Source: Polytrichum commune (taxonomy: Eukaryota > Streptophyta > Polytrichopsida > Polytrichales > Polytrichaceae). From it: a stretch of DNA of 64,000 nucleotides. Position numbers and translations under genes: made by a program. Below the pieces are notes generated by a model. It did no database searches. It saw only the letters and a program-made list of their open reading frames with translations, and was not told the DNA's origin. The stretch lies in contig OX485805.1 in the NCBI GenBank assembly GCA_950295325.1, positions 41,440,758 to 41,504,757 on the forward strand. The letters run 5' to 3'. This document shows, piece by piece, positions 1-36,557 of the stretch (position 1 is the stretch's first letter; each line of letters opens with the position of its first letter).

Positions 1-1489
1 TATCCGGAAGGTAGACATTTTTCAGTTTCTACTTCTGGACGAAGAACTCATAAACTACATATGAAGGGAAATGCAAATAACCAATAAATGAGCAGACCTC
101 ACCTGCATTTGGCTAGAGAGGATGGGAGATCCACTGCTATGTGAAGCAACAGGATCATGGTTCAGTTCTAACCTGGAGATTTGGGCATAATCAGTGAGAA
201 ATCTAGTGTTTCCAAAGTCCAACCGCTTTACATGTTGTGATCTTTCGGTTTCCCTATATTAATTTGAGGTATGCTCTACAGATTCCTCTAAATTGATTGG
301 TAATTTTCCTGAAGGCTTCAAACTGCAACCAGTTATTTCTCGAACGTAACTGGTTCATCTGTAACTGGCGGTCACTTCTCCCCATTCATTGGATCTAACA
401 AGTGAGTTCGGCAGGTGCAGTTCGGGAGGTGCAGTTCGGCAGTATGTCACATCACGACCCGGCATGCCTCGGGCAAACGGGCTCACAACCTGAAGGCCTA
501 CTAAACCAACATCATGACTCAGGTCTATAAAAATCCGAGCATCTGTCTGATGCCTCCCTTCTTGAGACAAACATCCAGCTGTGTTTGTGCCTTGGTTATA
601 ATCTGCAATGTTTTCCAATAAGTGTCTTGGCCTTGCTCTTTCCAGCTCATTGTCATTAATGTCAACAGTCTCTCCCATTCTCCTTAACTTTCTGACTCTC
701 TTAAGCGGGCTGGGTTCAGATATATGTACACCAATCCCTCCAACTGGATGAACCATAAGCTGACATATCCTTTCCAACCACTTCTTCCCTCACAATTAAA
801 GTGGGGCACTTCATACTTTTATCCACATTTCACAATTTCCCCTTCCAAGTCATTTCAAACCTCATCATCTCACCATCACTTGAGGTACCTCATTCAAATG
901 TGGGTGCTTCTGACATGAGCTGAAGGTGGCATTGTGTTGAACTTGTTTCAGTTCAAGCGAGTGTTGTGAGTCCAAGAGATGGTGGAGATGGTGGAGAAGG
1001 TGCATTCCACATTGCTTTGTGGGGTTTATTTATTCATTCCAATTTCATGATGTTTGGTATTGCATTCCAATTTCGTGAATGAACCTTGTCGATTATGAGG
1101 TGTGTACATTGTTAGGGGTCATTCACCATGTAGTCAAATGCCTCTCTTCTTCTGATATTTTAGAAATCGAGTTCATTTTGTTTGCACACAATTTTATTAT
1201 GACTTTTATTGACTGATATGGCATTGTGCGTTTCCTCAGCTTCTTCGGGTGAGCCTGCCGGTGGTACGTTCTGCGTCGGTCACGAGTCCAAACTTGGCTG
1301 TCATCTGTTCAATTTGCAGTTTACTATTAACTCATTAGTGGGATTTTCAAAATAAACATTCACTCACGATTTTGGCTCTGTATTCACGTATTGCTTTCTG
1401 GACTGTTGATATACATGTCGCATTCTCTTGAGGCAGAAGTCTCATGCAATATCTCATGCAATATCTGATGAATTTGCCTTCATTTTTAG
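1..1489. other. Region upstream of copy 1; no gene recognised
   Basis: I see no recognisable protein here. A minus-strand frame is open from 777 to 355 (about 140 codons, with no ATG at its upstream edge and an internal ATG a few codons in). It matches no family I know and could be an exon or chance. Copy 1 should have 5' exons here, by analogy with copy 2, which has four exons before its ParB-like exon. I could not find homologues of them. A short candidate exon lies between a CCTCAG acceptor near 1240 and a GTACGT donor near 1265. Confidence 0.3.
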
Positions 1490-4400
1490 ACAATCCAATA
1501 GATGCTCGCTCGAAGCTCCATACCATGGTCTCTAATGAGATTCCCAGCACCAAATCCAGGATTGAGGGACTTAGATTTCAACCGAAGAACAAGTCCAAGA
1601 TCTTCATTCCTCTATGTCGAATGGTTTGTCTTCCCGTGGTCCGTCCCTTCCTTAAGAATGATGTCCTTAAGTTGGCTTGGCATTTCCAGAAGAACGGTTA
1701 CATGGAAGGTAATGGTGTTTTCTATGTTGCCCTGGAGGACAATGAAGGCAAAACTTCAGACGTTTCCGCAGAGATCATTTCCACTTGGAGTCAGCATTGG
1801 GTGACAGTGAACAACGAATTTGAGGCCATGCTAACCGCCGATCCAACTCTCCAAGTCTTTTGTGGGAAGATGTTCCATGTTTGGGATGGCAACCACCGCA
1901 TCCAAACTTGGATGCCAATTATCAACAATGACCACCTGGATGACATTTCTTGGCATTATACGGTCGAGAGTATTATTCTCGTTGTGAATGGGGATGTTGT
2001 ATCCATGCTCACTGCCTTATACGAGGTCAACTGGTATGTTCTCATTGCAATCACATGCTCTCTTGATTTCATCTCATTTTTGTCATGGTACCTCATCTCT
2101 CATTTAATCTTGATTTTCTGCCACTCAGGAGAAATGAAAATTCACATGTGGTTGCAAACCTTGTGCATCGGCTCTACCGCACTCAGAGTCTTGCCAAACA
2201 GCCATTGGAGTTCTTCAAGTCTTTGGTGTCTCAAGATGATGTTCAAGCTGCGGAGACAAAACAGAAGAATCCTAAAACCAAGACTTGGTTCACCCTTACA
2301 ATTGCATCGCTCACCTCCATACTCTACCAGGTTCAATTGTTTTCATACTCTTCCTATGGTTTCATTCCCACTTTTAACTTCCTCTATATTTTTGCATTGC
2401 TAATATACTAATTCCTTGCTTTTCAAATGTCTCAGCAAGAAATTGGAGTGGTTGCTGCATCTACAGAGCGGAAATTTTATGATCGATATCCAAACCCTGA
2501 GGACTGGACATCTCAACGTGTTGATGACATCGTTGGCAAGGCGGTTACACGTGCCAAGGTGCATTTCAAAAGTGAGTTGACAAAAATCTTACCAATTGCT
2601 GATCCTCAGAACACTCCTGCTTTTCTTGCCGAAGTGAAGACTCATTATGAGTGTCGTGATGACGGTGTTGAGATGAAGTTAGAGAAGTTGTGGATGTTGG
2701 CTGTGTCTGCCATGGATCCATCTATGAAGGTACTTTGGCTTGAGAGCTGGAATCAGCCTCCAAGTCTTTGGGTGCAACTGAAATTCCCCAAGCAAGGTTT
2801 CAACGATGACGCCTTTTACACTTGGTTGAATAAGGCAACATGGTGGGCTCAAGTATGTGATTCTCCACCTCTCCTCTTTGTTGAGTTCTCAAAAATTGTT
2901 TTTTTGCTTTTGAACTTTCATTGCTAGGCCATTGCAAATTTGTTATCTTCTTTGTTCATAACTCCTCTGTCGTGCTATGCAGTTGGCAGTGGAAGCACAA
3001 AAACTTCTCGATGGTGTCCTACGTGATCAAAAGGCCACCATCAACTATCAACCTGATGGCCGGGATCCAATTCCAACCCTTTTTTATTATATTGAGCAGA
3101 TTCGCATATCATTATGGGACACGGCATTCTTCCGCGAATTCGCAGTGGAGAAATGAGTGAACAAGAACAACACTATCGACAAGCAGTACTTGTTCAAGCC
3201 AGCATTACACCGTGTCCTGTCCTCTTCTCCTCCAAGGCTATCTCTAGATCCCCTCCCTTCTTTGTTAATTTCTTGGAGAGAGATAGTGAGGATTTCATGC
3301 TCACTAAGGGAATCATAAAATCATGGGATTCTGTGCACTGGGAGCGATGTGGGTGGTATCTTGACTGCCCAGCTTCGAAGGCCCCTTCGTTTGACATTGT
3401 TCTTCGAGACTCCATCCAACCACCTTCCCTTCGAACTGGGACTCCCTCGGATACCGTCGACACTCCGCTTGAGGTGCTTGCCAGTCAACGGCCGGCCTCA
3501 AAATCCAAGAGGCAACTGAGGCAGAAGAAGGCTCCCGTTTCTGATCAGGTTCAGAGGGCCACTTCCCCGGTTGGGACGCCGCCCCTCTTCTCTGCAGCAG
3601 ATGCTGCACTTGCTTCAAGTGCATCTAGACTTCCTGCATCACCACCGAGTCCTTCAGTTATTCTAGCAGAGCCAATTACGAAGCGCCAGAAAGTTGATGT
3701 CCCGGAGTCCAGTACTGCCACCACGTTCTTGTCTCCCCCTAAGTGTCATCCCATGAAGGTGAAGGCTGTTGCATTGTCAACCGCATATACTTCTCAGCAA
3801 CTTCTTGTGAATGATTCTTTTGTTCGTATTGTGGAGGAGAAGACAATCACTGGAAAGTTCAGCACCAATTACGAAGACATTGTTTACTTTCTGAACAAGG
3901 TCTCCCCCTAATTTTCCAATTCACTACAGTATTGCTTTCATTTTTTCAATGTCATGTTGTAGGTTGGTAGTTGGATTTTTGTGGCATTTTTTCAATGTCA
4001 AGTTCTAGCTCGGAACTCCCAGGACTTACATTCCTCTCCGGTTTAGGTTGGCACTGGACGCCACTTCTACTTTGATGGCAAACTCATTCAGAAACCTACA
4101 GTGGACTTGCTTATTGCTGAGTACCCTGACGGGCAGAGAGTTCCTGGAGTTTTTAATCCCCCGTCTCAGATCCCACCTTGGAATGAGTACTCCGATACTT
4201 TTCTTAAAGTGACCATGGGATTTGCATATTCCTACTTGCATGACGATGGAGCCTTCATTCTTTTCTACCCCGACAGTCCCATGGTTCGCAAGGAGATTTC
4301 ATCATTTTTCAAGAATTACGAGATGAAGGTTCTTGACGAGTGGACCATCATCAATTATTTGCACCTTGCCAATCCCCTCGTGTCAGCCAAAAATGTTTGT

Positions 4401-6367
4401 TTCTTGTCCTTCTCTCTTTCCTACTATTTTAACTAAGTTTTTTCTTCTCTTCCGATTTTTCTTCTTAAGACTTAGCTGATTATTTGATTTACCTTTGCAG
4501 ACTTTGAAGGTCAAGGCTATTCTTATAGTCAGATCTGTCCCTACTTCTGAGGCTAGGCAGCCAAAGATCCTCACGATCACTCCAGACCCTTCAGTCCCTC
4601 AGGTGGACTTAGCGTGTGATGATGTCCTCTTCAATCCTGTCACATCCGAGACCCAGCTGATTCGTAAAAGCGATGGTTCGCCATGGCGAGGCCCGAAGGA
4701 GAAATCGGATGTTCTCATGAAGCTCTTTGTGCATGGATTATCTCCTCCAGATGGTATTGTCGCCGACCTAACCGCTTCCATAGGTACCTCATACCCACTT
4801 CTCCTTCCTTTTTATTTTTAATTTTCATACCATGTTTGTCGCGCACCTCTCCATGAGGAGTGCCCGAAACACCATGGGCACAAGGGGGACCCCGGAGTGA
4901 CACCCGGGACTTGTGGCGCCGTTGGTGAGAGGGCCCAAGTGATCCTAGTGTGGGTGAGGGCCCCGGGCGTTGGGAACGCCTCCCACCCACGGAGACTAGG
5001 AGGCACAAGGGTAAGGCCATGAGCTATGCGTAGCTCATGGCGTGGTGATTCTAGAATGCTCAAGAACACCTCAATCGGAGGTGTGAGCTAGCAGTTATGG
5101 CCATTTGAGTGGGGCGCTGTCCCGGGACAGCGCCTGGTACAGCAGTGCCTGGGCGTGATTCCCGGGACTGCCAAGGTTCAAAGAGGCATAACGTCCTCAT
5201 AACTTGCCCGAATGGGGTAAGTGAGGAGTGCATCGGCATCTACGTGAAGCGTAGATGAAGATGGAGTGGTCAAGTGTTAGCATCAGACATCATACAAGGA
5301 AGTTATGATGGTCTGAAGCTGTGGGGGCTTCTAGGCCCAGCGGCTAAGGGAAAATGTCCACTTGGCCCCAACTCTTGGTAGAGAGACAAGAGGTTGGTTG
5401 ACAGTGGGGTAGGGGCCCCGCGTAGAGTCCTAGAGGCTTATATGGGTGAGGTGGTGTGGCCTCACCCACCCGAGGCCGAACGGCACGGCCTCCATTGGCA
5501 TTGGCCTAATGTGAGGCCATAGTTGCCTAGTATGGTTCGGGTTGTTGTAGTGTTGCTCCGGCAACGCGATGATCAACATAAGATTGGACTTCCATGGATG
5601 GAAGTCCACATCTAAGGATTGGTTACCGATTGAAGGGGTGAGTCCCGAAAGCAAAGTAGGAGGGTTGGTTCCCCTCCTATGAACTATAAGGTCCGGGGTG
5701 AGAGGAGCTAACCATTAGCATGGCGGTATGCGAAGGGTTAGCACTCGTAACCTTTGCTAGGAAATGAAAATTGCCAAGATGGTCAAGGGGGACTAGCAAG
5801 GGTTGCGACAATGTTTCATGTCCTAATTTATCCCATTTCTCCAGGAGCTACTATTCGCGCAGCCCGTGCATGTAATCGCCACATTCTGGTTTTAGAGAAC
5901 GACTCTATGCTCTTTTCTGAAGTCCTTGAACCCTTGGCAGTTCCACCTCCAAATGCTTCGACTTTCTCTACTGCGGGCGACCTGAGTGACGATGACGAGG
6001 CCATTCCAGATGCCCCTTTGCACGATATATGTGAGTAAGTCCACGCCTTCGTTGGTTGATATTGTTTTCTATTTATCTCTTACTTGTAATCCATCCTTTG
6101 TCCATCTCTAAATCTTGCTCTGAACATGGCAGTTTAACAAATTCAGGGAGACCGTTACGAACTCCACCTTCAACTTGGTACTTTCCATCGCCGCCCCCAA
6201 GTCCTCGTGGCTTACCTGTATATGCTGAAGCCATGGCCTTGGCATATGCCCATGGTAGCTCTGGGAATTCGACATCCTTCTTCACTCCTAAGAATCATGT
6301 TGACCCTCGAGTTCTACGCTACTTTGATTTAGAAGCAGTGTCGAGCCCTCTATGTAGCAGTGATTGA
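1490..6367 (+). pseudogene. ParB/Srx-like + amino-methyltransferase-like fusion gene, copy 1 (probably decayed)
   Basis: Exons inferred from GT-AG sites and alignment with copy 2: 1490-2033, 2129-2330, 2436-2852, 2983-3899, 4047-4394, 4501-4783, 5845-6034, 6133-6367 (stop TGA 6365-6367). The first exon holds a ParB/sulfiredoxin-like module with a GNHR motif at 1888-1899 (context VWDGNHRIQTW). The 4047-4394 exon has the methyltransferase motif IV region (VDLLIAEYPDG; E-Y-P-D at 4119-4130). Motif I (VADLTASIG) starts near 4759 and continues across an intron as ATIRAARACNRHILVLEND. This is the motif IV-then-I order of beta-class N4/N6 DNA methyltransferases. A TGA at 3154-3156 stops the frame, and the downstream homologous sequence continues in another frame, so the gene is probably broken unless a tiny intron was missed. 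A proline/serine-rich linker separates the two modules. The 5' exons were not found. Chemistry and substrate are unknown. Confidence 0.7.
4837..5810 (-). mobile_element. Solo LTR of the gypsy family also present at 10059-17343
   Basis: This 974-bp block runs from TGTCGCGCACC to GGGTTGCGACA. It is the reverse complement of the two LTRs at 10059-11032 and 16370-17343, has the same length and shows several base differences. It is flanked by a perfect 5-bp target duplication, ATGTT (4832-4836 and 5811-5815). It lies inside the intron that splits methyltransferase motif I in copy 1. Without it that intron would be about 82 bp, like its neighbours. An LTR-LTR recombination remnant is the simplest reading. 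Confidence 0.93.
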
Positions 6368-6579
6368 AGTAATGGCGACCTTCTTAATCATACAAAGTAT
6401 CTTGAGCTCCCAGGAATTGTCATGGATATAGGCCCCTTTAATAAAAATTGTGTTCTAAAACTTTCAAGTTTTCAGTGAAAACCGCGGTCATAGAGCTCAA
6501 AAGTTCTCAAATTCTTGCTCTAGTCCTGATTATAGGGCTTTATTTTCAATACAAAATTTCTAAAAACTGTAGAAGTTAT
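6368..6579. other. 3' flank of copy 1
   Basis: AT-rich sequence between the copy 1 stop codon and the heptamer array. No open frame or clear repeat was seen. It is presumably the 3' untranslated region. It has no obvious similarity to the longer stretch that follows copy 2. Confidence 0.4.
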
Positions 6580-6614
6580 CGCTCACCGCTCACCGCTCAC
6601 TGCTCACCGCTCAC
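6580..6614 (+). repeat. Heptamer array (CGCTCAC)x5 after copy 1
   Basis: Five tandem heptamers: CGCTCAC three times, TGCTCAC, then CGCTCAC, 35 bp in all. A 35-bp array of five related heptamers also follows copy 2 at 35158-35192. The truncated minus-strand transposase-like frame ends inside this array (its stop TGA is made of array sequence), so the array marks a sharp junction between two sequence units. Confidence 0.9.
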
Positions 6615-8008
6615 AGAATAGCATTCCTCGGATGTGGGATACCGTGGCGGGCCATGACGTGGTTGAGGTTCTGCCAGAAGAGCACTTGCGCATCCTTATC
6701 CTCCGATTGGAAATCACAACATGAAATGGTCATAACCCGTTGATAAGTCCCATCGTAGACATGAGCGGCCATGGTGGTCCACCCTTTGACCCGCTTGACG
6801 TGATCGGACATCATCCACGCGTTCTCGAGGTCCCCACCCGGTTGCATCCGATGAACCAAATCCACTCCACTTCCAAGACCAACCTCGGACATCTTGAAAA
6901 CGAACACCTTGTCAGCATCGTCACCTTGTCCTGGGAATTGGTTCCTTTGGACGTAGGTCCAATTGCTAACGCCTCTAAGCTTAGCGATGCCATCCATAAC
7001 ACCGAACCTCCGCAAAAATTTGAAAGAGGTAACCTTAGATCGAAGGTTTGGGGAATTCAACTCTCTACAGCTCTCAAACACAGGTTCGAGCTCTGTTAAG
7101 GAGAGGAGACGGTGTTTCTCACTATTTTCAGAAAGGAGGAACTCACCAACAATGTCCTTGCTGGCTTCAAGGACGATCTTGCTGTGCGTGGCCTGAGGCG
7201 TACGCTCAACGTGCTCCTCGAGAAGTGCATTGATACACTTCCGACTGTCTCGGCAGTCTCCAACCTTGACTGGATGTTGATGAGTACCGATATGAATGCA
7301 GGCTCTTTGGGAGGACTCCTTCCCATGGACGTAGAAGATTTTTGCATCGCATAGTGCAATGCATTTGGGAGGCTGTTTGCAGATCCTGCACACAAGAGTA
7401 GATCCGGATGGCACAATGCCAGAGAGAGGGAAAGGCTCTTTAGTGAACCCATCAAATTCCATGTCGTTGACCTCAGAGAGACGATGGGCGCGTTGAAGGT
7501 AATCACAACTCGGGTTTTGGCATTGTAGATGGCCAACACAGGTAGAGGAACGAAATGCAAGGCCAACGTCGTTTGTAATGTTGGTGGTTTGAGTCTTCGT
7601 CCAAACATGGCCATCATATTGCTTGTCCATGCCGTCCATGGACTTGGCCCTGGATTGAGATGATGAGACTTCGGGTGCAGGGAGGACAAATAACTGGGTA
7701 CCATCAAAACGAGGGGGGAGGTGATTAACCTCTAGGATTTTGATTTTATCGTAATCTAGTTTCTTGAGAACGCTCTTACTACCGGGTATAGAACAAAGAC
7801 GATGAAGGCAGTGAACAATAGGTGGAAGAGGTTTGGACGTAGACGGTACGGAAGGAGAAAAAGGCACAGAGCGAGAAGGAGAAGGTGTTACATAGGAAGA
7901 AGAGGGAAACAAAGGAGGGGAATCATGAACATCAGCCTTCCTCACAGATACATCTTCAGTCGAAGAATCAGACAAGTCTACAACGTTGTCTACGTCAGGC
8001 TCGGTCTT
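6611..8008 (-). pseudogene. DDE-transposase-like gene, 3' part of a disrupted and truncated frame
   Basis: A minus-strand frame of about 465 codons is open from 8008 to 6611. It has an acidic/serine-rich N-terminal part, then Cys-rich stretches (STCVGHLQCQNPSCDYLQRAH and LVCRICKQPPKC) that look like a zinc-binding unit. It ends with VKRVKGWTTMAAHVYDGTYQRVMTISCCDFQSED..WQNLNHVMARHGI (positions about 6820-6630), broken here by dots. This last part resembles the start of the RNase H-like core of large plant DDE transposases of the MULE-like sort. The part that would carry the remaining catalytic acidic residues is missing because the frame stops in the heptamer array. The CACTA element at 8009-25589 interrupts the gene; it resumes at 25590. 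The exact superfamily is uncertain. Confidence 0.6.
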
Positions 8009-21254: not shown

Positions 21255-22687
21255 ATGCACGATCATAGACAACCAATAGAAGCCACATATGATGCACAAC
21301 AACATGGATGTTCGAAGAAGTTGCTCGGGGATGCATTGGTTGAAGACGATGAAGGGGAGGATGGTTTCACAACGAAGGACAGTGAAGGTAGCGAGGGGGA
21401 AAGGGAAGAAACGAATGACCCCATGGAAACAAGAGGGAGTACGATGAACAGTGAGGACCCCAGTGGGGTAGACCACCAGAAGCTCTTATGCGAAGCTGGA
21501 ACTCCACTGTATGAGGGAAGCCCCTCGAACCGTCTCACATCGACACTCTTGATACTATTGTGTTGCACCACATTCGCTGTACCAAACAACTTTGTGGATG
21601 AGTTGTTGAAGTTGTTGAAGGAGACAATTTTACCCAAGGACAACACACTACCGAAATCATTTAACGAGGCGAAAGGTTTGTTGATGAAGTTGGGGTTGTC
21701 CTACAACTCAATACATGCGTGTAGAGATGGATGTTGTTTGTTTCGGAAAGAATTGGAGAATGCAACGGAGTGCCCAACATGCCACAAATCGCGCTTTGTA
21801 GAGAACTCCGGTACAATTCCAGTCAAAGTTTTGAGACACTTTCCCTTGATTCCTCGTTTGCGAAGGATGTACAGCTGCACACGGATCGCGGGCCTAATGA
21901 AGTGGCATGTAGGTGGGAAAAGTAAGGACAAGGTGATGAGGTCCGTGGTGGACTCAAAGGCTTGGGACCACGTAAATAATAGGTGGCCATGGTTTGCGGA
22001 AGATGAACGGAACGTTAGGCTTGGCCTTGCACTGGATGGCGTAAATCCATTTAGGAACCAAAGTCTCAGCCACTCTACTTGGCCCGTGGTCATGCTAAAC
22101 TACAATCTCCCCCCTTGGTTAGTGACCAAAAACTTCTTCATGATGCTTGCGCTAATCATACCAGGAAAAGAGAGTGTAAAGGACAGGAACGTGGATGTGT
22201 ACATGGCACCGTTGATTGAGGAGCTCCAAGAGCTTTGGAAAGGGATCGATTGCTTGGACGGATCGCAAGGAAACCCCAAAGAGAAAACATTTAAGCTACA
22301 TGGCATGCTTTTGTGGACGGTGAATGACTTCCCGGCGTACGGTTTGATTTCGGGGCAAGTAACAAAAGGACATAGGGCTTGCCCCGTGTGTGGCCCCAAC
22401 GTGGCAACACGGCGTTCCAAAGCGCTGAAAAAAATGTTTACCTTGGGCATAGACGACAACTGCCAATGACCCACCAATGGAGACGACAAAGGTCCAATTT
22501 TGATGGGCAGCCGGAGATGAGACCACCGCCAAGAAGGATGAGTGGTCGAGAGCAATTGCGATATGCGAACGAGCGAGAAGAGTGGACGAAAAAACACTAC
22601 AGAAACCAAACTGGGCAGACGACAGACCCCGTACACGAACATGGAGTGAAGAGGAGGACATGTCTATATGACCTTCCATACTGGAAA

Positions 22688-22863
22688 GTACGTGTTTCTT
22701 ATTATGAGAATTAAGGGAGTGGACGTAGTGACATGATTGCATATAGTAATATTGTTTATGAGTATTATGTGAGTGGACGTAGTCATGTACAGTCACATGA
22801 TTGCACGTAGTGATATTGTGATTCGCTCCGGAAAATTTCTCACTGGGTCGAGTCATTGTGCAG
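22688..22863 (+). repeat. TNP2 intron 1 with AGTCA-type motifs
   Basis: GTACGT donor and TTGTGCAG acceptor. Inside are two near-copies of GTGGACGTAGT..ACATGATTGCA about 60 bp apart plus TAGTCATGTACAGTCACATG. These are the same motif class as in the subterminal regions. Confidence 0.7.
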
Positions 22864-23762
22864 GATCTTCTAATTCGACACACGTTGGATGTTATGCACT
22901 GTGAGAAAAACATCGCTGAGAATGTGATGAAAATCATATTTGGAGAGAAGGATACACTTGGAGTTCGTCTGGACATGAAGGAGGCGTGTATACGCCCGCA
23001 TCTTTGGCCCGTAGCAGGAACAAAACCCGGTAGCGTGATTCTACCTCGATCCTCGTACGTTATGACGAAAGAAGAGCGTGAAGTCTTTGTGGAGCAAGTG
23101 CGTGCACTGCGAACCCCCACTCACTATGTGGGACAGTTGAAGAAGCGCGTAAACGTAGATGGACAAATTAAAGGCCTGAAATCCCATGACTACCATGTCC
23201 TCATGCAGCAAGTGTTGGCACTATGTGTGCGCTGCACAATGGAAAAGGAAGTGCGGACATCAATAATAATGTTGAGCCGTGTATTCAGGAGGGTGTGTGC
23301 TAAGTCCATTGATCCTGCAACAATACAGGAGATGAGGTGTGAAGCGGCCATAGCACTATGCATGTTGGAAAAAGAATTCCCGCCATCATTTTTTGACATC
23401 ATGAGCCATTTGGTCCTGCATCTCGTGGAGGAAGTGGAAATTTGTGGACCTGTACATACACGTTGGATGTACCCTATCGAGAGGTACCTGAAGACTCTAA
23501 AAGGGTATGTCCGAAACCGTACTCGCCCAGAGGGTTGCATGGCTGAAGGCTACGCCATAGTAGAGGCATTGGGATTTTGTACGGAGTATATGCAAGAATA
23601 TACAGTCACCACTCGAAGAGTGTGGGATGACAAAGAAGACCCATCAATGTATGATGAGATCCTCGAAGGTGGCGGGCGGGCGCGTCATCCCCCATCCGAC
23701 CTTCGACAATGGATACATGAGTTCGTGGTAAACAATGCGGCACCACTGGAGGAGTGGAGGAG

Positions 23763-24053
23763 GTGAGTTCACATTTTAGTAGAAGAACCTTAAATGCACC
23801 ACCTCTCATAGAACAACAGTGCAGACCATACGAACTATAACAAAACACATCTTTTGTGACAAAAAAATATGACTGCAGTCAGTCATATTTTGGGATTTAT
23901 GACTGAGTACAATCACAAAATGTAGTCGTAAAATATGCATTTCGTTGTAGTTATCGCGACACAGTACGACTACTGTTGTATGCAAATATGACTGCCCTTA
24001 GTGATTTCAGCAAGTCACGGGTAATGATGTGGTGGGTTGTATCCAAAATGCAG
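23763..24053 (+). repeat. TNP2 intron 2 with AGTCA-type motifs
   Basis: GTGAGT donor and ATGCAG acceptor. The second half (23865-24010) holds ATATGACTGCAGTCAGTCATATTTTG and further TGACTG/AGTCGT units. Confidence 0.7.
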
Positions 24054-25589: not shown

Positions 25590-25967
25590 CTTGACACTTA
25601 TTACCGGAGGTGTGCTAAAGTCAGCAGTGGAAGATCGAAGAGGAGCAAGGAGTTATGTTGACTCTTCCATCTGAGAAGCTGGCCAGCCAACAACACTATA
25701 CTTTCCAGCGCGAAGCTCCCACACATTGCCATTGTCAGTTAGCTTGGAGGACTCATGGAAGGAATGAACGAGCAATCCAGTATCATCGAAGATCTCACGG
25801 TCTACCCATACTGTATCAGGTTGAAGAGAGAACCTAAGGCAAAGATGAAGCTCCGAGACTACAGCAATACCCTGTGCATCAATGGGGAAGAGAATAGGAA
25901 CACCGATGCCATGGGAACGAATTTCGGCCATCTCAGAGATGGGAGGAAGAATTGACGATGAAGCCAT
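25590..25967 (-). pseudogene. DDE-transposase-like gene, 5' part beyond the CACTA insertion
   Basis: Removing the CACTA element and one CTT duplicate joins this segment to 8005-6611 in frame (..ISVKTEPDVDN..). On the minus strand an ATG at 25967 opens MASSSILPPISEMAEIRSHG and runs to about 25663. A short 48-nt intron (25662-25615, acceptor TTTAG after a pyrimidine tract) would then lead to the exon ending at the CTT site. The product is about 100 residues of no recognisable fold and would be the N terminus of the transposase-like protein. Its start codon is about 320 bp from the divergent start of copy 2. Confidence 0.5.
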
Positions 25968-26283: not shown

Positions 26284-29200
26284 ATGAAGGAAATAGGAAA
26301 TTCACAACCTTTGACAACGGAACCATCACAGAATAAGAAGAGGAGGTGAACATCTACACATTACACTAATAGGAAGAGGAAGACGGTGAGGACACAAAAG
26401 ATACAGACACCAAAGGCGCCAATCAAAGGCCGAGGGACACCCGAGGATTTAAGGAAGAACATCAAGACTAGGCGTAGACCAGCTTTGAGGTTAGATTGTG
26501 AGATTCCGCCATTTCATTTATCACCGATTTTGGAACAGGCGGACGGAAGTAACGCCCATACAATGACAGACGATGAGGAGTTGGGAAGTGACCACATACA
26601 CGAGGAAACACCCCAAGAGACGGAATCTACAAGTGTTGTAAGCAATCTTCAAATTCCCATGAATTCAGTTAATTGAGAAGAGCAGTAAAATAGTAGAACA
26701 CAATGACAAGTGATTCAACAATGTCGTTTTGTATGATTTGTGAAAATTGTTATGGACATTGGTTTATCTCGAATATAGGAGGTTGGGAAGAGTGGGGAGA
26801 GTGGAAATAGCTCCGACGAGGAAGAAGATGCGGAGTTAGAACAACAAGCACAAAACGCGTCGGTAGAGCTAGGAACGGAGGGAGCAACTCCATCGGGACA
26901 ATTCCATGTTCAAAGAAGATCAGAAATGAGGGAGTCCAAGGGAAAAACGGCCAAGGATGAAAGAAAAATATTTTCCGTGGGAGAAGGGGATGGTGAGGCC
27001 GAAACCCTAAATGGGGGGGTCGGAGGTACTACATCTAGGGTTCTCCGAAGTAAGGCGGCCACACCACAAAGGGCCGCCAACCGAGGGAGAGGGCGAAACC
27101 AAGCTAGGAAGGAGGGAAAGAAGTTGGAGAAGAGCACTTTGGAGAAGGCCATGGCCACGGAGGAGGGGAACTCGGGTGCTAGTGGTGATGGCGTCCACCA
27201 AGTTTTGGTATGGTTTGAGAACTCAAAATCAGATTTTGTTTGAAGTTTGTGGGTTGTGGATGGGATTCGGGTGATTCCAGGTGGCCATATATGGTGGTAT
27301 CGGCCGAGAGGGAGGAGCCCTCGGATCCGAGGCCTCATGTCTATGATACTAGGATTTCATATTTTGCTTGACTTTGTGGGAGGAGGTTGAGTTTCGGGCG
27401 ATTTCAGGGTGGCCATTGTGGGTGGTTTCGGCCGAGAGGGAGGAGCCCTCGGATCCGAGGCCTCACGGCCATGATACTTAGATTTCAGATTTTGATTGAC
27501 TTTGTGGGATGAGGTTGGGTTCGGGTGATTCCAGGGTGGCCAAATGAGATGGTTTCAGCCCTAGAGCGAGGAGCCCTCGGATCCGAGGCCTCACGGCCAT
27601 GATACTTAGATTTCAGATTTTGCTTGACTTTGTGGGATGAGGTTGGGTTCGGGTGATTCCAGGGTGGCCATATTCGGTGGTTTCGGCCCTAGAGGGAGGA
27701 GCCCTCGGATCCGAGGCCTCATGGCCATGATACTTAGATTTCTGATTTTGCTTGACTTTGTGGGATTTTGTTAAGTTCATGTGATTCAAGGGTGGCCAAA
27801 TGAGGTGGTTTCGGCCCTAGAGGGAGGAGCCCTCGAATCCGAGGCCTCATGGCAATGATACTTAGATTTCAGATTTTTGCTTGACTTTCTGGGATTTTGT
27901 TAAGTTGATGTGATTACTGGGTGGCCATATTAGTTGGTTTCGGCCGAGAGGGAGGAGCCCTCGGATCCGAGGCCTCACGGCCATGATACTTAGATTTCAG
28001 ATTTTGCTTGACTTTGTGGGATGAGATTTGGTTCGGGTGATTCCAAGATGGCCATATTAGGTGGTTTCGGCCCTAGAGGGAGGAGCCCTCGGATCCGAGG
28101 CCTCACTCCCATGATACTTAGATTTCAGATTTTGCTTGACTTTGTGGGATGAGGTTGGGTTCGGGTGATTCCAGGGTGGCCAAATGAGGTGGTTTCGGCC
28201 CTAGAGGGAGGAGCCCTCGGATCCGAGGCCTCACGCCCATGGTACTTAGATTTCAGATTTTGCTTGACTTGGTGGGATGAGGTTGGGTTCGGGTGATTCC
28301 AAGGTGGCCAAATGAGGTGGTTTCGGCCCTAGCGGGAGGAGCCCTCGGATCCGAGGCCTCACGGCCATGATACTTAGATTTCAGATTTTGCTTGACTTTG
28401 TGGGATGAGGTTGGGTTCGGGTGATTCGAGGGTGGCCAAATGAGGTGGTTTCGGCCCTAGAGGGAGGAGCCCTCGGATCTGAGGCCTCACGCCCATGATA
28501 CTTAGATTTCAGATTTTGCTTGACTTTGTGGGATGAGGTTGGGTTCGGTTGATTCCAGGGTGGCCAAATGAGGTGGTTTCGGCCCTAGCGGGAGGAGGCC
28601 TCGAATCCGAGGCCTCATGGCAATGATACTTAGATTTCAGATTTTTGCTTGACTTTCTGGGATTTTGTTAAGTTGATGTGATTACTGGGTGGCCATATTA
28701 ATTGGTTTCGGCCGAGAGGGAGGAGCCGTCGGATCCGAGGCCTCACGGCCATGATACTTAGATTTCAGATTTTGCTTGCCTTTGTGGGATGAGATTTGGT
28801 TCGGGTGATTCCAAGATGGCCATATTAGGTGGTTTCAGCCCTAGAGGGAGGAGCCGTCGGATCCGAGGCCTCACGGCCATGATACTTAGATTTCAGATTT
28901 TGCTTGACTTTGTGGGATGAGGTTGGGTTCAGGTGATTCCAGGGTGGCCAAATGAGGTGGATTCGGCCCTAGAGGGAGGAGCCCTCGGATCCGAGGGCTC
29001 ATGGCCATGATACTTAGATTTCAGATTTTGCTTGACTTTGTGGGATGAGGTTGGGTTCGGGTGATTCCAGGGTGGCCATATTAGGTGGTTTCGGCCCTAG
29101 AGGGAGGAGCCCTCGGATCCGAGCCCTCACGGCCATGATACTTAGATTCCAGATTTTGCTTGACTTTGTGGGATGAGGTTGGGTTCGGGTGATTCCAGAG

Positions 29201-32200
29201 TGGCCAAATGAGATGGTTTCGGCCCTAGAGGGAGGAGCCCTCGGATCCGAGGCCTCATGGCAATGATACTTAGATTTCAGATTTTTGCTTGACTTTCTGG
29301 GATTTTGTTAAGTTGATGTGATTACTGGGTGGCCATATTAATTGGTTTTGGCCGAGAGGGAGGAGCCCTCGGATCCGAGGCCTCACGGCCATGATACTTA
29401 GATTTCAGATTTTGCTTGAAATTGTGGGATGAGATTTGGTTCGGGTGATTCCAAGATGACCATATTAGGTGGTTTCGGCCCTAGAGGGAGGAGCCCTCGG
29501 ATCCGAGGCCTCACTCCCATGATACTTAGATTTCAGATTTTGCTTGACTTTGTGGGATGAGGTTGGGTTCAGGTGATTCCAGGGTGGCCAAATGAGGTGG
29601 TTTCGGCCCTAGAGGGAGGAGCCCTCGGATCCGAGGCCTCACGCCCATGGTACTTAGATTTCAGATTTTGCTTGACTTGGTGGGATGAGGTTGGGTTCGG
29701 GTGATTCCAAGGTGGCCAAATGAGGTGGTTTCGGCCCTAGCGGGAGGAGCCCTCGGATCCGAGGCCTCATGGCCATGATACTTAGATTCCAGATTTTGCT
29801 TGACTTTGTGGGATGAGGTTGGGTTCGGGTGATTCGAGGGTGGCCAAATGAGGTGGTTCGGCCCTAGAGGGAGGAGCCCTCGGATCCGAGACCTCACGGC
29901 CATGATACTCAGATTTCAAATTTTGCTTGACTTTGTGGGATTTTGTGAAGTTCATGTGATTACAGGGTGGCCAAATGAGGTGGTTTCGGCCGAGAGGGAG
30001 GAGGCCTCGGATCCGAGGCGTCATGGCAATGGTACTTAGATTTTAGATTTCTGCTTGACTTTGTTGGATTTTGTTAAGTTCATGTGATTACAGGGTGGCC
30101 AAATGAGGTGGTTTCGGCCCTAGAGGGAGGAGCCCTCGGATCCGAGGCCTCATGGCTTTGATACTAGGATTTCAGATTTTGCTTGACTTGGTGGGATGAG
30201 TTTGGGTTCGGGTGAATTCGAATCATTAATATGAATTCATCACTTTGAATTCAAATCATTTATTTTTGGTTGGGATTGTATTGGCCTTGCTAATATGCTT
30301 TCATGTTGGTAGGATTTCGACTTCTCTCTAGCTGGGCAGTCCCAACAAAATTCCGAAGAGGTCGTTCCACTGGCTTCTCCCGCGGCTGATGTGGATGCTG
30401 CCCAAGTTGTTCTAGGAAAGGTGATTATACTATTTACGCTTTTTGCAATTGTCTACATGTTTAGCCATCCCCCATTGGATCAACATATTATGAGTTCTTT
30501 CGTTCTAAACATGTTTGGTTTTTGTGTTTTTTTAAGGCTTCTTCACTTGGCCAAGATACGGTCATCGCAGTTGCCGACACGGATCCGGTTGTTAGTGAGC
30601 TCGAGCTTCGCAAAACACAAAAGGAGGATTCTAATGGTGTAATCCAACGCCTCCGGATTAAACCCATTGTAAAGTCCCGCTTTTTTATTCCTTTATGCCG
30701 CTTGCGATGCCTACCTCTTATCTGTCCAATCAGTGAGGTGGAGGTGCAGCGTCTAGAATGTGAATTTGTGATGGGGTACCGTGAGGGAGATCATGTACTG
30801 TATATGTCCTCGTTCAATGACGTTTCTGTGGACATGCCGGTCTCCCCTGATATTGTGTCCTCTTGGAGCCCTCTATGGCAAGAGACCAATGCTGAGTTCG
30901 AGGTCAAACTCAGAGATGGCCCAGATCTTGCACATCTATCTGGCAAGATGTTCTTTGTATGGGAAGGAAACCATCGACTCTCAGCATGGTGGAGGCACAT
31001 CAACAACAACCATGCCAATGAGAAGAGTTGGCATATCTCCGTGGATTGTATTGTGGTCGACCCCAGGGAATGCACGGGTGTCTTCCTCAATGCCATGAGC
31101 GACATTAATTGGTAAGCATTTTCCATTTGTTTTTTTATTTTTCTCGATCTTGTTATTCGACTTCCAACACATCTATTCTTCCAGGTCAACTGAGCATGAC
31201 CACGTGAAGGCAAGCATTCCTGCCAAGCTCCTTCGAATTCGTACGTTTGGAAGGTTGGACTTGTCGACATTCAAGGATCTCATTTCCCCGGCTGATTACA
31301 AAGCTTGCGAGAAATCGAAGGAGATTCGCCCTACTTGGTACAACCTCACCGCGGATGTCTTCGTGAAATTCCTCTACAAGGTATTCTAATGCATTCCCTC
31401 TTCCCCGTCTTCCAACCTTCTCAATTTCCATTCCGATTGTTTTTGCTTACAATGTCTTCCCTTGCAGAGAGACATTTCGGCTCAAGGAGACCTCGCTGTC
31501 AGGCAATATCGTGAAACCACACCCATTGCAGAGAGGAATGCCACTGATATTTGGAATGTCATGACCAAGGCCCAAGAGAGGACGATCAAGAGCATTCGGT
31601 CACGCACCTTTGAGAAATACATCTCCGTTGTTCACCCTGACAATGGAGATGACTTCTTTCACGAGGTATCATTTTTTTCGTGTTCCTAGTGCTCTTCGTA
31701 TTTTTTCAATAGCCAACTCTTCGAGAGTTTTTACTCATTTCACTCTTTTGGTTGTTTCAAGATTGACCGACACTTTAATGAGTTCCACTCGCCCGACATG
31801 ACAATTGAGAAGTTGCAAAAGATTGTCACGTGTCATGTTGAATCTTCATTCAAATCCAAGTGGCTTCATTGGTGGAACGCACCTCTTCAAGAGAGGTCGG
31901 ACAACAAGTTCCCCATCGATAAGCCCTTGAGGGAGAAAATTCTGGACGACTGGCTTCACAAGGTGTCCTTTTGGGCTCAGGTTCATACACCCCCTCCACC
32001 TCATTTTCTTTCACTTTTTTTTATTCTGCTTGTTCCATATCTAATCATCTCACTCTGTGCAGTTGGAGACAGAGGTCTCCATTGAAATTGATACCTTTCA
32101 AGAGAACCTCGGCGTCGACATTGATTGGGATGCATCCGAGACTATCTTGCGCCCTCGTGAGTATGTTGATCATTGGCGGATTGTCCTTTGGGATAGAGCC

Positions 32201-34534
32201 TTCAAACCTTATCTCGGCGATAACCCGGACATCGCCTTTGCCAAAGGTGATAACATCTCGGAGTTCGAGGAGGGGGCTCTCGCTATCAAGTGCGTTACAT
32301 ATCGGTAATGCATCTATCCTCCTCCTTTGCACTTCTCCCTCTTCATGGTTCTTGCTCCAACCCATGGTTTTCTTACTCTCTTGTTTTGTGTTGTAGTTAT
32401 ATCATGAGAGAGTTGGTTGCAAAGAATGCATTGGCATTATCTTCCTTGCCCGCCTACCTCTCGGACTGGGTGAACGTACTTTCTAGCCTTTGCGTATACA
32501 CGACCAAGCAAACAACCAAGTTTTCCAAGTCCCATTTGCAGGCTGCGGGATGGTACTTTGATTGTTCCGCAGGATTTGTCCCAGTGGAAGAGAAGCCTCT
32601 ATTTGATAGCCTTGTTAGTAGTGCTCCCGAGGACAACAATGTCACCTTTGAGGAGCCCGACATCATTGAAATTCCCCCTCCTCCGCCTAAGGTACCAAGG
32701 GGAAAGGGTAGAGCAAAGAAGACTGCCACTCAAGCCTCTTCCCAAGTTGTCACTCGGAGTGGTTCAAAGCCTCCCTTTGAGCCACCCACCCTTCCACACA
32801 GTCCATCTCTCGTTCCCTCGGTTCTTCCATCGGTTGCCCCCTCCGGTACTCCCTCGGCCTTTCGTCCACAATCTAATGCTACTCCTTCTCACAGTGGCAC
32901 TTCTCTTCTCTCCTTGCCTCGCAAGAGGAAGGCCGCCCTCTTGGATACGAGTGCCACCTCTTCGGAGTCGCCTACCACGCTTGCCCTCATCGAAAATGTG
33001 GACATGGTGCAACTCATGCTGGATTCTGACATTGCAGGAAGTCCCCTCCCGGCATATACGCGCATCCAAGAGTTCATTGCCAAGGTTTGTATGTTTTCCT
33101 TTGGAATTGATCATACTCCTTTTCGTTTGGATTGTTTTTTTTTCCTTCTTCATTTTTTCTCATTAATTTTTCCTTGCAGGCTGGGGCAGGTCGTTCCCGT
33201 GTGAACACCTCCTCGAATATTCACAACGGGCTCGATTTGATTTTCGCGGACATTCCCGAGAATTTGCCGGTGCCCAACATCTCCACCGAAGTTCATGTTT
33301 GGAACAAGCTCCACGAGTCATACTATGAATGTCTTTTTGCATTTGCAAAATCTAACCTATATGATCATGGTGTCGTTGTGCTTGCCCATTGTGCGAGTGC
33401 AAGTGTTTTTAGGCTTATTTTTTATTGGGCTCACACTTACGACTTTTACGTGGCCGAAGATTGGTTCGGGATGGCTGATTTGGACCTCCAAAACCCCGTG
33501 GTCCCCTCTGGAGTGGTAAGCAACTCTTTATCTTCCAACCCGCATTTGTTTTGCTTTTCATTTCACGAATTCAGTCTTATGAAATCGTATTCATTTTTTC
33601 AGACTCGGAAATTCAGTATCAAGGTTCTTGTTCGTGTTAACTCCGTTCTAAAAGTGCGACCGGAGGCCGCACAGGAGTATGGTTACCACCTCCAGCGTGA
33701 TGGCTGGTTGAATACCTTCACCGATGATAAGTGCCAGGCCATGCGCAGTGATGGGGTACCTTGGAGGGGTGCTCGCGAAAAGCATCACGTTTTTTTTTCT
33801 ATCATTTTCGCTACTCTCACCGACAAGAACGATATTATTATGGACTGGCAGTGTGGTGTAGATAAGCATTATCTTTCCGCATCGTCCTTACATTGAATTT
33901 TCCTTGATTTTTTTTACCCAAGTTACCATACTAACCTCCTACATGTCTTTGTTTTAGGTGGTTCGATTGTAGCATGTCGCTCCCTTGAGCGGCATATTGT
34001 GGCTCTTGAGAGTGACCCCGTCATTTTCAATGCACTCCTACTCCCTATGCGCGATCCCCAGCCTGCTCTAACTACTCGATCAGTTCCACCACCGTCTACA
34101 TCTATGTTTGATCCGCCTCAAAAGAAGACCAAAAGGGCATTCAGGTTCCTTTGTGCATAAGTTCGAATTTTTTTGTTTTTGCGTGTATGCCTTGATGTCA
34201 TTTACCCTTCCTCCTTTGTCATATTGTTTCTAATATTTTTGCTTTGGTGTTCTGAGACCCCACAGAGAACGCAATCCTTTGTCGACGCATGTTTTCGAGT
34301 CCTAAGGCCAAGTCCCCACTTTCTAATCGCGTCCTTACTGCGGACATGTTCTCAACGCCTTCCACGACGTTCGAGCTCCCTTGCTATGCGGCCGGGCTTG
34401 CCAATCTTTTAGCGGAAGCTCCGACTCCACCTCCTAGTCGCATCCGACCTTTCAACAAACTAGTAGAGGTTTATGTAGACATAGAGGCGGAGGAGGGCGA
34501 GGATAGTGATAGACAAGGTAGTCCTAGTTGTTGA
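26284..34534 (+). CDS. ParB/Srx-like + amino-methyltransferase-like fusion protein, copy 2 (apparently intact)
   Basis: Inferred exons: 26284-26345, 26373-26637, 26779-27207, 30313-30420, 30537-31111, 31185-31380, 31468-31665, 31762-31980, 32063-32304, 32397-33084, 33180-33515, 33603-33855, 33958-34144, 34300-34534. They total 3,993 nt (about 1330 residues) with all phases agreeing. The first intron (27 nt) is doubtfully short, so the extreme N terminus is uncertain. Residues 1-250 are basic/acidic and disordered with NLS-like KKRRKRK and RGRGR. About 315-480 is the ParB/sulfiredoxin-like module (FIPLCRLRCLPL.., GNHR at about 432-435). A Pro-rich linker holds GKGRAKK and PRKRKA. About 1010-1240 is methyltransferase-like: motif IV position GLDLIFADIPEN (D1018), VPWRGAREKHHVFF, then motif I position IIMDWQCG (D1187) and VALESD. 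The chemistry is unknown because catalytic residues are altered. Nuclear location is likely from the basic segments. Confidence 0.75.
27241..30215 (+). repeat. 128-bp minisatellite array inside intron 3 of copy 2
   Basis: About 23 tandem units of 128 bp. GATACTTAG recurs at 27473, 27601 and 27729, exactly 128 bp apart. Each unit carries a palindrome around CCCTCGGATCCGAGGCCTCA and a GGTGGTTTCGGCC segment. A variant unit with TTGATGTGATTACTGGG recurs at 27901, 28669 and 29309, i.e. 768 and 640 bp apart (six and five units), showing higher-order structure. The array sits between a GTATGG donor (27208) and a TAG acceptor (30312) that join exons in phase. The minus frames through it are repeat translations, not genes. 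Confidence 0.97.
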
Positions 34535-35157: not shown

Positions 35158-35192
35158 CGCTCTTCATTCTCCGCTCTCCGCTCTACGCTCAC
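35158..35192 (+). repeat. Heptamer array of five units after copy 2
   Basis: Five heptamers: CGCTCTT, CATTCTC, CGCTCTC, CGCTCTA, CGCTCAC. The number of units, total length (35 bp), strand and final heptamer are the same as at 6580-6614 after copy 1, although the surrounding DNA is not alike. Confidence 0.85.
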
Positions 35193-36557
35193 ATACTTGA
35201 GTTTCCCACCTATATAGCTAGTAAAGGGGGAAATCGGGTCCAGTTTCAATTGAGGAAGGCGCCTTCATGCTTGACAGATTAAGGTAAGACGACAAACTCG
35301 CACGTGTTTGCACTTGCAGGCACATAGGAGACCGAAGAATATCTTATGGCTATGTCCATATGCTCCAAGTGGACATGGTGAGAAACCCTTCCACAAATAA
35401 CGGATTATTGAGGTAGGAGTGGATGCACTTGTAGCGGCGAATTCCTACCGTCGATCAAAATGAGCATGCAAGAGAAATACAGAGATGCAGATTCCTCATT
35501 CATTCCATGGCGCCAGAGAAATTACAAAACTCGAAAATCTGCCATGCATACGAGACCCACCATCAAAATTGTTGAACTCATGGGGAGGAGGCTAGCGATT
35601 CATGTGCAAACGACAAAGAGCATCACATCACATCTCCTCTCCTCTCCTCAACTCTGCCGCCCAAGCCCACTCCAACTCCAACTCCTTGGCTTCAGCAGAA
35701 GTTACTTGGTGAAGTGTGAGCACAACATTCATGGACTACTACATACACAGCCCCTCGAAGCAGGCTTCTTCCAGGAAGTGGCGGTTCAGAAGATATGGAA
35801 GAAAGATTGGCAGGCCTGGGGAGAATGCCGACTGACTTACAGTCAACGATGACTCTTCCGAATTCAGGAAGGGCACTCAGCATTTCCAAAGCTCGTCCTT
35901 GAGATAATGCTTCTCCAGAAGTGAAAAATCATACAAAATTCATTATTAAAGTTCTTGGCCACCAATAGAGGGCCTCCATAAAGACAGTGCACTGTTACCG
36001 ATGGGGGACGTTAAAGCCACGAACTTATAGGGGAGGTAGATTCGGGCAGGGGCAGCCGCCCGCCCATCCACAAATTTCAGATTTTTAGGATCCGACCGAA
36101 AATTGTTGCCCGCCTGCCCGACGTTAAATAAACCATTGTCCTTGCATTCTTGAAGACCACTTATCCATAAATCCCATCTTGAGTACATTTCACTTTCAAG
36201 GCCCAAAATCCACTATATATGTTTAATTTCATTGAGTAAATAAACAATTGACTCGGATTTCATTTTTAAATTGGAACTATCATCAAAGTATGTAAATAAC
36301 TTGGAAGTCAAAAATATTATAAAACCCTCATTAGCACCGAGGTTATGATTTTTGTGACTTGCCATTGCAAGGGTCTTTGTCATTATTAAAACTTCAGTTG
36401 TATTGGGTTGAAATGACACGTATTACTAGGTTACTTTAGTACTATAAACTGTAGCTCAAATATCCGGAAAGCATGACCCATAACATTAGGAGAACTTCCC
36501 AGACTCACTTACATACTTAAGTTCAGCCTTGTCCTGTAATTTTCTTTGTAATCGGGA
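35193..36557. other. Stretch without a recognised gene
   Basis: An ATG-started frame at 35460-35852 (130 codons, +) has no recognisable motif and may be chance. 36010-36130 carries C/G-rich GGGCAGGGGCAGCCGCCCGCC and GTTGCCCGCCTGCCCGACGTTAAATAAACC, related in reverse to the repeat at 40040-40230 and 45050-45260. Confidence 0.35.

Follow-up and report, generated by a model that had tools for sequence, protein, structure and literature searches.

Each of the two genes with a GNHR motif in the window, which is the whole 64-kb stretch of DNA analysed here, is an accessory gene of a large cut-and-paste DNA transposon; the two transposons belong to one family and are nested. The family has inverted repeats and 10-bp target duplications at its borders and has multiplied by transposition; that the gene carrying the GNHR and methylase modules is a transposon gene is practically certain. 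For the whole we favour, as the simplest account and as fairly probable, the explanation that the gene encodes an accessory protein of a Mutator-like transposon, which would recognize its own element.

The window and the same genome (G000; 407.8 Mb, 64 contigs) were searched; C-numbers denote contigs and L-numbers loci that were read. A plant source, which an earlier note on this DNA had assumed, agrees with the LOB domain, which had 13 matches in the genome and none in 14 control genomes and which we take to be a land-plant/streptophyte family.

Ends, target duplications and copy number

The element carrying the second gene (copy 2) extends from C3:41427479 to 41475964 (48,486 bp), and the same 10 bp (ACCTATATAG) that follows its right terminal repeat also precedes its left end. 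The element carrying the first gene (copy 1) is inserted inside the transposase gene of the copy-2 element and leaves the window at the left, with its left end at C3:41430524. The right end of the family, CTTGAGTTTCCC, has a sharp boundary; the left end is GGACGACACTTGTATGTGAGCG, and the inverted-repeat ends are imperfect. A 10-bp target duplication flanks each of the six elements that were read at both ends. Four of the duplications are perfect (TGTTTTATGC, TCCTTATATA, GTTTCCAAGT and that of copy 2), and two have one mismatch (the L040/L037 element and the copy-1 element). Four elements outside the window measure 15.0, 15.5, 16.2 and 18.1 kb. A left boundary at GATTTGGACTGCAG was rejected, as an unrelated repeat beside that point in L017 had mimicked an end, and the idea of a Helitron or another element type lacking matching inverted repeats was dropped once the true left end was read.

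Genome-wide there were 98 matches to the right end (at most 1 mismatch) and 105 to an internal left marker (at most 2 mismatches), with none for the reversed controls. In each exon search 150 candidates were scored, so that these counts are lower bounds, and the match lists partly overlap. All 150 scored places matched for the copy-2 GNHR exon (1269 candidates), the copy-1 GNHR exon (1211) and the copy-1 motif-IV exon (1075), which gives at least 150 genomic copies of each. In the youngest subfamily, three copies share about 99% identity over long stretches, apart from the arrays described below, where identity is somewhat lower.

The two genes and other features of the window

GNHR is found on the + strand at 1888 (GKMFHVWDGNHRIQTW, copy 1) and 30966 (GKMFFVWEGNHRLSAW, copy 2), and a scan of all six frames found no further GNHR in the window. 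The copy-1 gene spans about 1432-6366, outside the interval quoted in the earlier note, and the copy-2 gene spans 26284-34534. The features of the window are as follows.

1..6629, + strand: copy-1 transposon, right part; terminal inverted repeats GAGCGACGCTATTTTG../GAGGAATGCTATTCTG.., target duplication GGATGTAGGA/GGATGTGGGA
1531..2033, + strand: copy-1 ParB/Srx-like exon part, with GNHR at 1888
4047..4394, + strand: copy-1 methyltransferase exon M1, motif IV region (VDLLIAEYPDG)
4501..4783, + strand: copy-1 methyltransferase exon M2, PWRGPKEK .. VADLTASI
5845..6030, end approximate, + strand: copy-1 methyltransferase exon M3 (GATIRAARACNRHILVLEND)
6630..8008, - strand: copy-2 element transposase gene, middle part; protein 88.6% identical to its relative in L015
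8009..25589, no strand: CACTA-type transposon with CACTACAACAGATTG ends and 3-bp duplication CTT, an insertion in the transposase gene of copy 2
25590..25952, - strand: copy-2 element transposase gene, N-terminal part
26284..27207, + strand: copy-2 first two exons (model), basic, low complexity
27229..30215, no strand: 128-bp tandem array, 23.3 copies, in the copy-2 intron 5' of the GNHR exon
30537..31111, + strand: copy-2 ParB/Srx-like exon, with GNHR at 30966
33180..33515, + strand: copy-2 methyltransferase exon M1 (DLIFADIPEN)
33603..33855, end uncertain (the L016 donor is altered here), + strand: copy-2 methyltransferase exon M2, PWRGAREK .. IIMDWQC
33958..34144, + strand: copy-2 methyltransferase exon M3 (GGSIVACRSLERHIVALESD)
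34266..34534, + strand: copy-2 last exon
35186..35207, - strand: copy-2 element right terminal repeat (GGGAAACTCAAGTATGTGAGCG), with target duplication ACCTATATAG from 35208

The downstream exons of copy 1 contain a motif-IV-like VDLLIAEYPDG, PWRGxxEK and a motif-I/II-like VADLTASIGATIRAA..RHILVLEND; those of copy 2 contain LDLIFADIPEN, PWRGxxEK and IIMDWQC..GGSIVACR..RHIVALESD in the same roles. The earlier note described two spliced genes with GNHR, motif IV followed by motif I, the W-RGxxEKxxV and V(D/L)E.D landmarks and a spacing of about 580 residues from GNHR to motif IV in copy 2. All of this was found again, the landmarks in both copies and the spacing in the splice model. The splice models of both copies are predictions from sequence. 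Copy 2 looks like a decayed gene: it has an in-frame TGA at 26347-26349, where its relative in L015 reads through, and the GT of the M2 donor, present in L016, is missing near 33862.

In copy 1, a repeat of about 1 kb (4830-5830) within the final intron of the methylase part holds a GCGCTGTCCCGGGACAGCGC palindrome, and a similar sequence lies next to the element that was read in L017/L018. A match to the copy-1-type GNHR exon at C3:58502281 sits in a 1905-residue open frame that far exceeds the others listed. The CACTA insertion seems to contain further nested elements; the frames inside it, at 21255-23766 and at 11-15 kb of the window, are, as we take them by eye, CACTA-type transposase-like and pieces of a retrotransposon polyprotein.

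Partner transposase

The strand opposite the accessory gene holds a 766-residue reading frame followed by C-terminal exons; the transposase of the copy-1 element was read in L071 on the minus strand. A 344-residue transposase core matched at 117 of 117 scored places (1880 candidates), i.e. at least 117 copies. Ten of these score exactly as the query itself (821 bits, 100%, 344 residues), which suggests recent movement. When the 117 places were compared with the 150 scored copy-2-type GNHR exons, 82 had a divergent (head-to-head) GNHR exon within 30 kb and 66 within 15 kb. Convergent and same-strand arrangements numbered 3 each, and random placement gave a mean of 0.7 and a maximum of 4 in 200 trials.

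The relative in L055 is 47% identical over 720 aligned residues of the transposase. By eye, the protein has conserved D-containing blocks, and its C-terminus carries a CxC..CxH motif of the SWIM type (CTC...CKH in L055, CNC...CKH in L040). Mutator-like elements have 8-11 bp duplications, SWIM and extra genes (PMC6446971). The element fits this group by its duplication length, inverted repeats and CxC..CxH motif. Weighing against the assignment, Pfam gave no MULE match for the transposase and SWIM at E=0.97 only, so we label the element 'Mutator-like', short of a proven member.

Methyltransferase-like domain

The protein's C-terminal domain is, with high confidence from sequence comparison, a homologue of the permuted beta-class amino-methyltransferases. 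The order of motif IV before motif I is a permuted one in both copies, and both modules (GNHR and methylase) recur in about ten subfamilies of the genome, which is beyond a chance resemblance. We aligned ten sequences of the same genome, from about as many subfamilies (alignment A1). Searched against the PDB with hmmsearch, A1 gave 5HFJ (E=1e-6), 5HEK (1.1e-6) and CcrM 6PBD (2.9e-6) among 15 entries listed at E<=10; the 6PBD match covers profile positions 16-231, those of 5HFJ and 5HEK chiefly 178-235. PF01555 (N6_N4_Mtase) was found at E<=1 in eight of the ten members (best 2.8e-7). Copy 1 alone gave 9.6e-4 (19.6 bits) and alternative splice models of copy 2 gave 0.075 and 0.027 (13.4-14.9 bits); the gathering cut-off of 26.7 bits was exceeded by the relatives at C1:9662150 (30.6) and C4:44111740 (32.2). 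The methylase consensus matched 734 phage protein records at E<=10 (best 3e-8), 23 of which cover at least 80% of the query, and phage methylases match over 97-100% of a consensus. Aligned by hhalign with three ParB-methylase fusions (C12 and two viral contigs), the domain reached 90% with E=1.4e-6 and a score of 48.1; 40 column shuffles gave 21.1 at most. The amino-methyltransferase domain proposed in the earlier note is thus upheld by PDB, Pfam, phage and hhalign profile matches alike.

Two results count on the other side. The final splice model of copy 2 has no Pfam match at E<=1, and the catalytic (D/N/S)PPY/F/W motif is absent from all ten A1 members. Their motif IV is not DPPY or SPPY; it reads D/E/N-x-P-E/D in every case (ADIPE, AEYPD, ADYPD, ADLPE, ANVPE). 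As an acidic residue replaces the catalytic Tyr of DPPY, the fold in the sampled subfamilies is probably an S-adenosylmethionine (SAM)/DNA-binding or altered domain. A divergent lineage has DIPY in L061 and DIPD in L062, and its DIPY form may still be catalytic. In this lineage (L061, C1:9660800-9664200; L062, C4:44110300-44113700; L069, C1:9655800-9660850) the methylase region lies in one 577-residue frame. At L069 1800-2961, 5' of the lineage's GNHP-type exon, frames seen by eye are protein-kinase-like (GRGSYGVVWK, HCDLSFTN, GDWGSA).

The methylase domain is under purifying selection. In the four of 12 pairs that were unsaturated, the ratio of nonsynonymous to synonymous substitution rates (dN/dS) was 0.09 and 0.11 for the GNHR exon and 0.18 and 0.09 for the methylase, values that are rough because dS is near 3 in two of these pairs.

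ParB/Srx-like module

We lean slightly towards reading the N-terminal GNHR module as a DNA-binding module of the ParB/Srx type that contains an insert of 43 residues. By eye, the module order resembles that of ParB: IPLCR, DVxxLExxF..GY and YVS are followed by the insert and then by KMFxVW(D/E)GNHRxxAW and WHxSVDxI. The unmodified module reached 0.4% against ParB by hhalign and 0.3% with wider sets. When the insert was deleted, the score rose to 20.2 (P=0.0079, probability 5%) with GNHR on GGRR, the expected register; none of 150 shuffles (maximum 19.7) and none of 60 in another run reached this score. Among 39 deletions elsewhere, one overlapping the insert gave 21.1 with the register unchanged, and with narrower sets deleting the insert left the result unchanged at 0.5%.

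Several results weigh against the reading. The 43-column deletion was chosen post hoc, after the alignment had been inspected. No ParB match was found in Pfam for nine members, no ParB/Srx structure in the PDB with alignments A2 and A7, and no phage protein or PHROG for the module; hmmsearch, hmmscan, PHROGs, tblastn and hhalign gave nothing significant for ParB. The ParB profile recovers Srx and SbnI in the PDB, yet stays at 0.4% with the GNHR module, and PF02195 was found at four places across the genome, all on small contigs. AlphaFold models of two window sequences of the ParB-like exon and of the reading frame that runs from M1 through the intron into M2 had mean predicted local distance difference test scores (pLDDT) of 32.5 and 36.4, which are unusable for the fold. 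The ParB profile signal is suggestive only. The earlier note had proposed a ParB/Srx module and separate profile searches of the two modules; its methyltransferase half was matched, and its ParB half keeps the motif order and the weak post hoc signal but no significant match in Pfam, PDB or PHROGs.

Palindrome arrays

The tandem arrays of palindromes, which lie mostly 5' of the ParB-like exon and are conserved between subfamilies, are a new observation. The array of copy 2 contains 20 TCGGATCCGA cores, which are all 20 of the window, and 16 exact CCTCGGATCCGAGG palindromes. The 14-mer CCTCGGATCCGAGG occurs 2434 times in the genome, with 0 for the reversed control and about 1.5 expected by simple chance. 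Among the first 50 sites listed, 44 fall in two elements that were delimited independently, 33 in C1:2247774-2261912 and 11 in C1:12936313-12947496; five more lie at C1:2490252-2497087, near a weak PF01555 match, and one at C1:474660. Compared between subfamilies, the cores (12-14 bp) have an identity of 0.98-1.00 and the 33-bp flanks one of 0.24-0.29, i.e. random. The array consensus units hold palindromes of up to 32 bp.

The core TCGGNNCCGA, derived from the same loci in which it was counted, occurs 3-95 times per group in seven of 19 locus groups, where a Markov model expects 0-0.2; its 2-nt centre varies (AT, AC, AA, TA, GA, CA). Other palindromes are found elsewhere. GCCGTTAACGGC is present in L045, L046 and L057; a comparison of 12 sites gave an identical core, with a flank identity of 0.26 between L045 and L046. 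TCGGTACCGA is found 3 times in L053, TCGGGACCGA 12 and TCGGCACCGA 5 times in L056+L049, TCGGAACCGA 15 times in L050 and TCGGACCCGA 6 times in L007. KGCCGTTAACGGCM occurs 512 times genome-wide (control 2); of the 50 sites listed, 46 are by our reading no more than 10 kb away from copy-1-type GNHR or motif-IV exons. The array is 5' of the GNHR exon in L045, L053, L056, L004, L007 and L013/15/17; its sites are on both sides of that exon in L050, and L046 has four of its five sites just ahead of the methylase exons.

Two results weigh against the favoured explanation. In 12 of the 19 groups, copy 1's type among them, TCGGNNCCGA is missing or almost missing (0-2): it was counted 0 times in L045, L046+L057, L047, L048, L052, L061/L069, L070, L071, the right halves L014/16/18 and copy 1's part of the window, once in L055+L051 and twice in L044+L054 (copy-1 type); L019 has CTCTCGATTCCGAGAG 7 times and no TCGGNNCCGA. 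Some of these 12 groups stop short of the relevant intron and others bear another palindrome. Furthermore, a tandem array at 61862-63240 of the window has 11 TACGAACGNNCGTTCGTA palindromes (TACGAACG-NN-CGTTCGTA), at 61864-63238, with a variable 2-nt centre, a grammar like that of the transposon arrays, and no ParB/methylase gene was detected beside it. A candidate methylase gene there, a weak tblastn match (E=0.039), was dropped when inspection showed no gene. As this array has no detected partner gene, palindromic arrays are not exclusive to these elements.

Proposed mechanism and alternative explanations

ParB binds palindromic or iterated sites such as parS and the sopC arrays. By analogy, the accessory protein would bind the palindromic repeats of its own element, and the bound protein might mark or shield the element's DNA, with escape from host silencing or help for transposition as the result. 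Such self-recognition through the palindromes is quite possible, if short of probable. A parS-like version, which we hold tentatively, has a catalytically altered (DxPE) protein and TCGGNNCCGA/CCGTTAACGG-class palindromes that would co-evolve by subfamily and control silencing or transposition. Binding, methylation and an effect on silencing are what we infer here.

The protein might instead be an active DNA amino-methyltransferase (for N4-cytosine or N6-adenine) with its own element's palindromes as targets, an activity of the kind proposed for an Ectocarpus protein. This would suit a full-length permuted domain kept under selection, the GxG-type motif I (DWQCGVGGS) of L016, a relative in the copy-2 subfamily, and the 577-residue lineage, which retains DIPY and exceeds the Pfam cut-off; the sites of methylases are also often palindromes. 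However, all ten aligned members have an acidic residue in place of the motif-IV Tyr, and a rotifer enzyme, N4CMT, loses activity when the Ser and Tyr of SPPY become Ala (PMC8885841), and we consider an active enzyme unlikely. The palindromes might also be intron RNA hairpins, transposase-binding sites or recombination-prone satellites and not sites of the accessory protein. The arrays are mostly intronic in the splice model, the longest palindromes of their units could form hairpins, and the array at 61862-63240 lies apart from any detected ParB/methylase gene. Yet the position 5' of the ParB-like exon recurs across several subfamilies with unrelated unit sequences, and the common TCGGNNCCGA core with its variable 2-nt centre resembles a dimer-binding site, which makes this explanation rather unlikely in our judgement.

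The earlier note had seen two paralogous plant genes that arose by an ancient bacterial transfer and were then duplicated within the host, gaining introns and nuclear signals. Both genes are real, and the bacterial and phage relatives of the methylase domain, the introns and the basic stretches would suit such a history, but there are hundreds of copies in the genome and not a host gene pair. The gene sits in a transposon with inverted termini, 10-bp target duplications, a linked transposase and recent near-identical copies, and a host gene family, now highly improbable, was rejected on termini, transposase linkage and copy number.

A bacterial-type DNA-modification protein is thus retained by selection in hundreds of plant transposons, beside candidate binding sites. 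This bears on the ways in which transposons escape the epigenetic control of their host or turn it to use, and the switch of palindromes between subfamilies is a natural experiment on specificity.

Comparison with known systems

This kind of gene is already known, since ParB-methyltransferase transposon genes have been reported from algae (PMC12477816); what is new is a probable land plant and a Mutator-like element. In the literature searched, with subscription papers mostly outside its coverage, no ParB-methyltransferase transposon gene of a land plant or a Mutator-like element was found. The 21.5-kb Sola1-1_Ec32 of Ectocarpus carries a gene for a ParB-like and N4C/N6A methylase protein (1104 residues) opposite its transposase, and green and red algal cases are cited in the same paper (PMC12477816). 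Like it, the present element is a giant DNA transposon with the accessory gene on the strand opposite the transposase. It differs in its 10-bp duplications and Mutator-like features (the other is a Sola1 element), in the DxPE motif and in a ParB part below profile detection; palindromic arrays are present here, and the accessible text of PMC12477816 makes no mention of arrays.

In the bacterial and phage ParB-methylase fusions (L065, L066, C12), as in our reading of the present protein, a permuted N6_N4 methyltransferase domain follows a ParB-type module. Those fusions differ by a short linker, a canonical DPPY and a single reading frame, and Pfam recognises ParB_N in C12. The small contigs C10, C12 and C23 (47, 61 and 20 kb), which are probably contaminants, have bacterial/phage-type ParB_N genes; in C10 and C12 an N6_N4 methylase is in the same frame as ParB_N, and in the C10 frame motif IV and motif I are separated by a long insert.

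The bdelloid rotifer N4CMT is likewise a bacterial-type amino-methyltransferase in a eukaryote and tied to transposon biology. Unlike the present protein, it is reported to be a captured enzyme with a chromodomain and SPPY that deposits N4-methylcytosine at transposons, and it is not described as transposon-borne in the accessible text (PMC8885841). VANC of the Arabidopsis VANDAL elements, which are Mutator-like, recognises short motifs in its elements' own non-coding DNA and counters silencing (PMC10398659, PMC5735166, PMC13317346). The present gene, compared with VANC by description, is likewise an accessory gene of a Mutator-like element. VANC directs hypomethylation, and the accessible parts of these papers describe no methylase domain for it.

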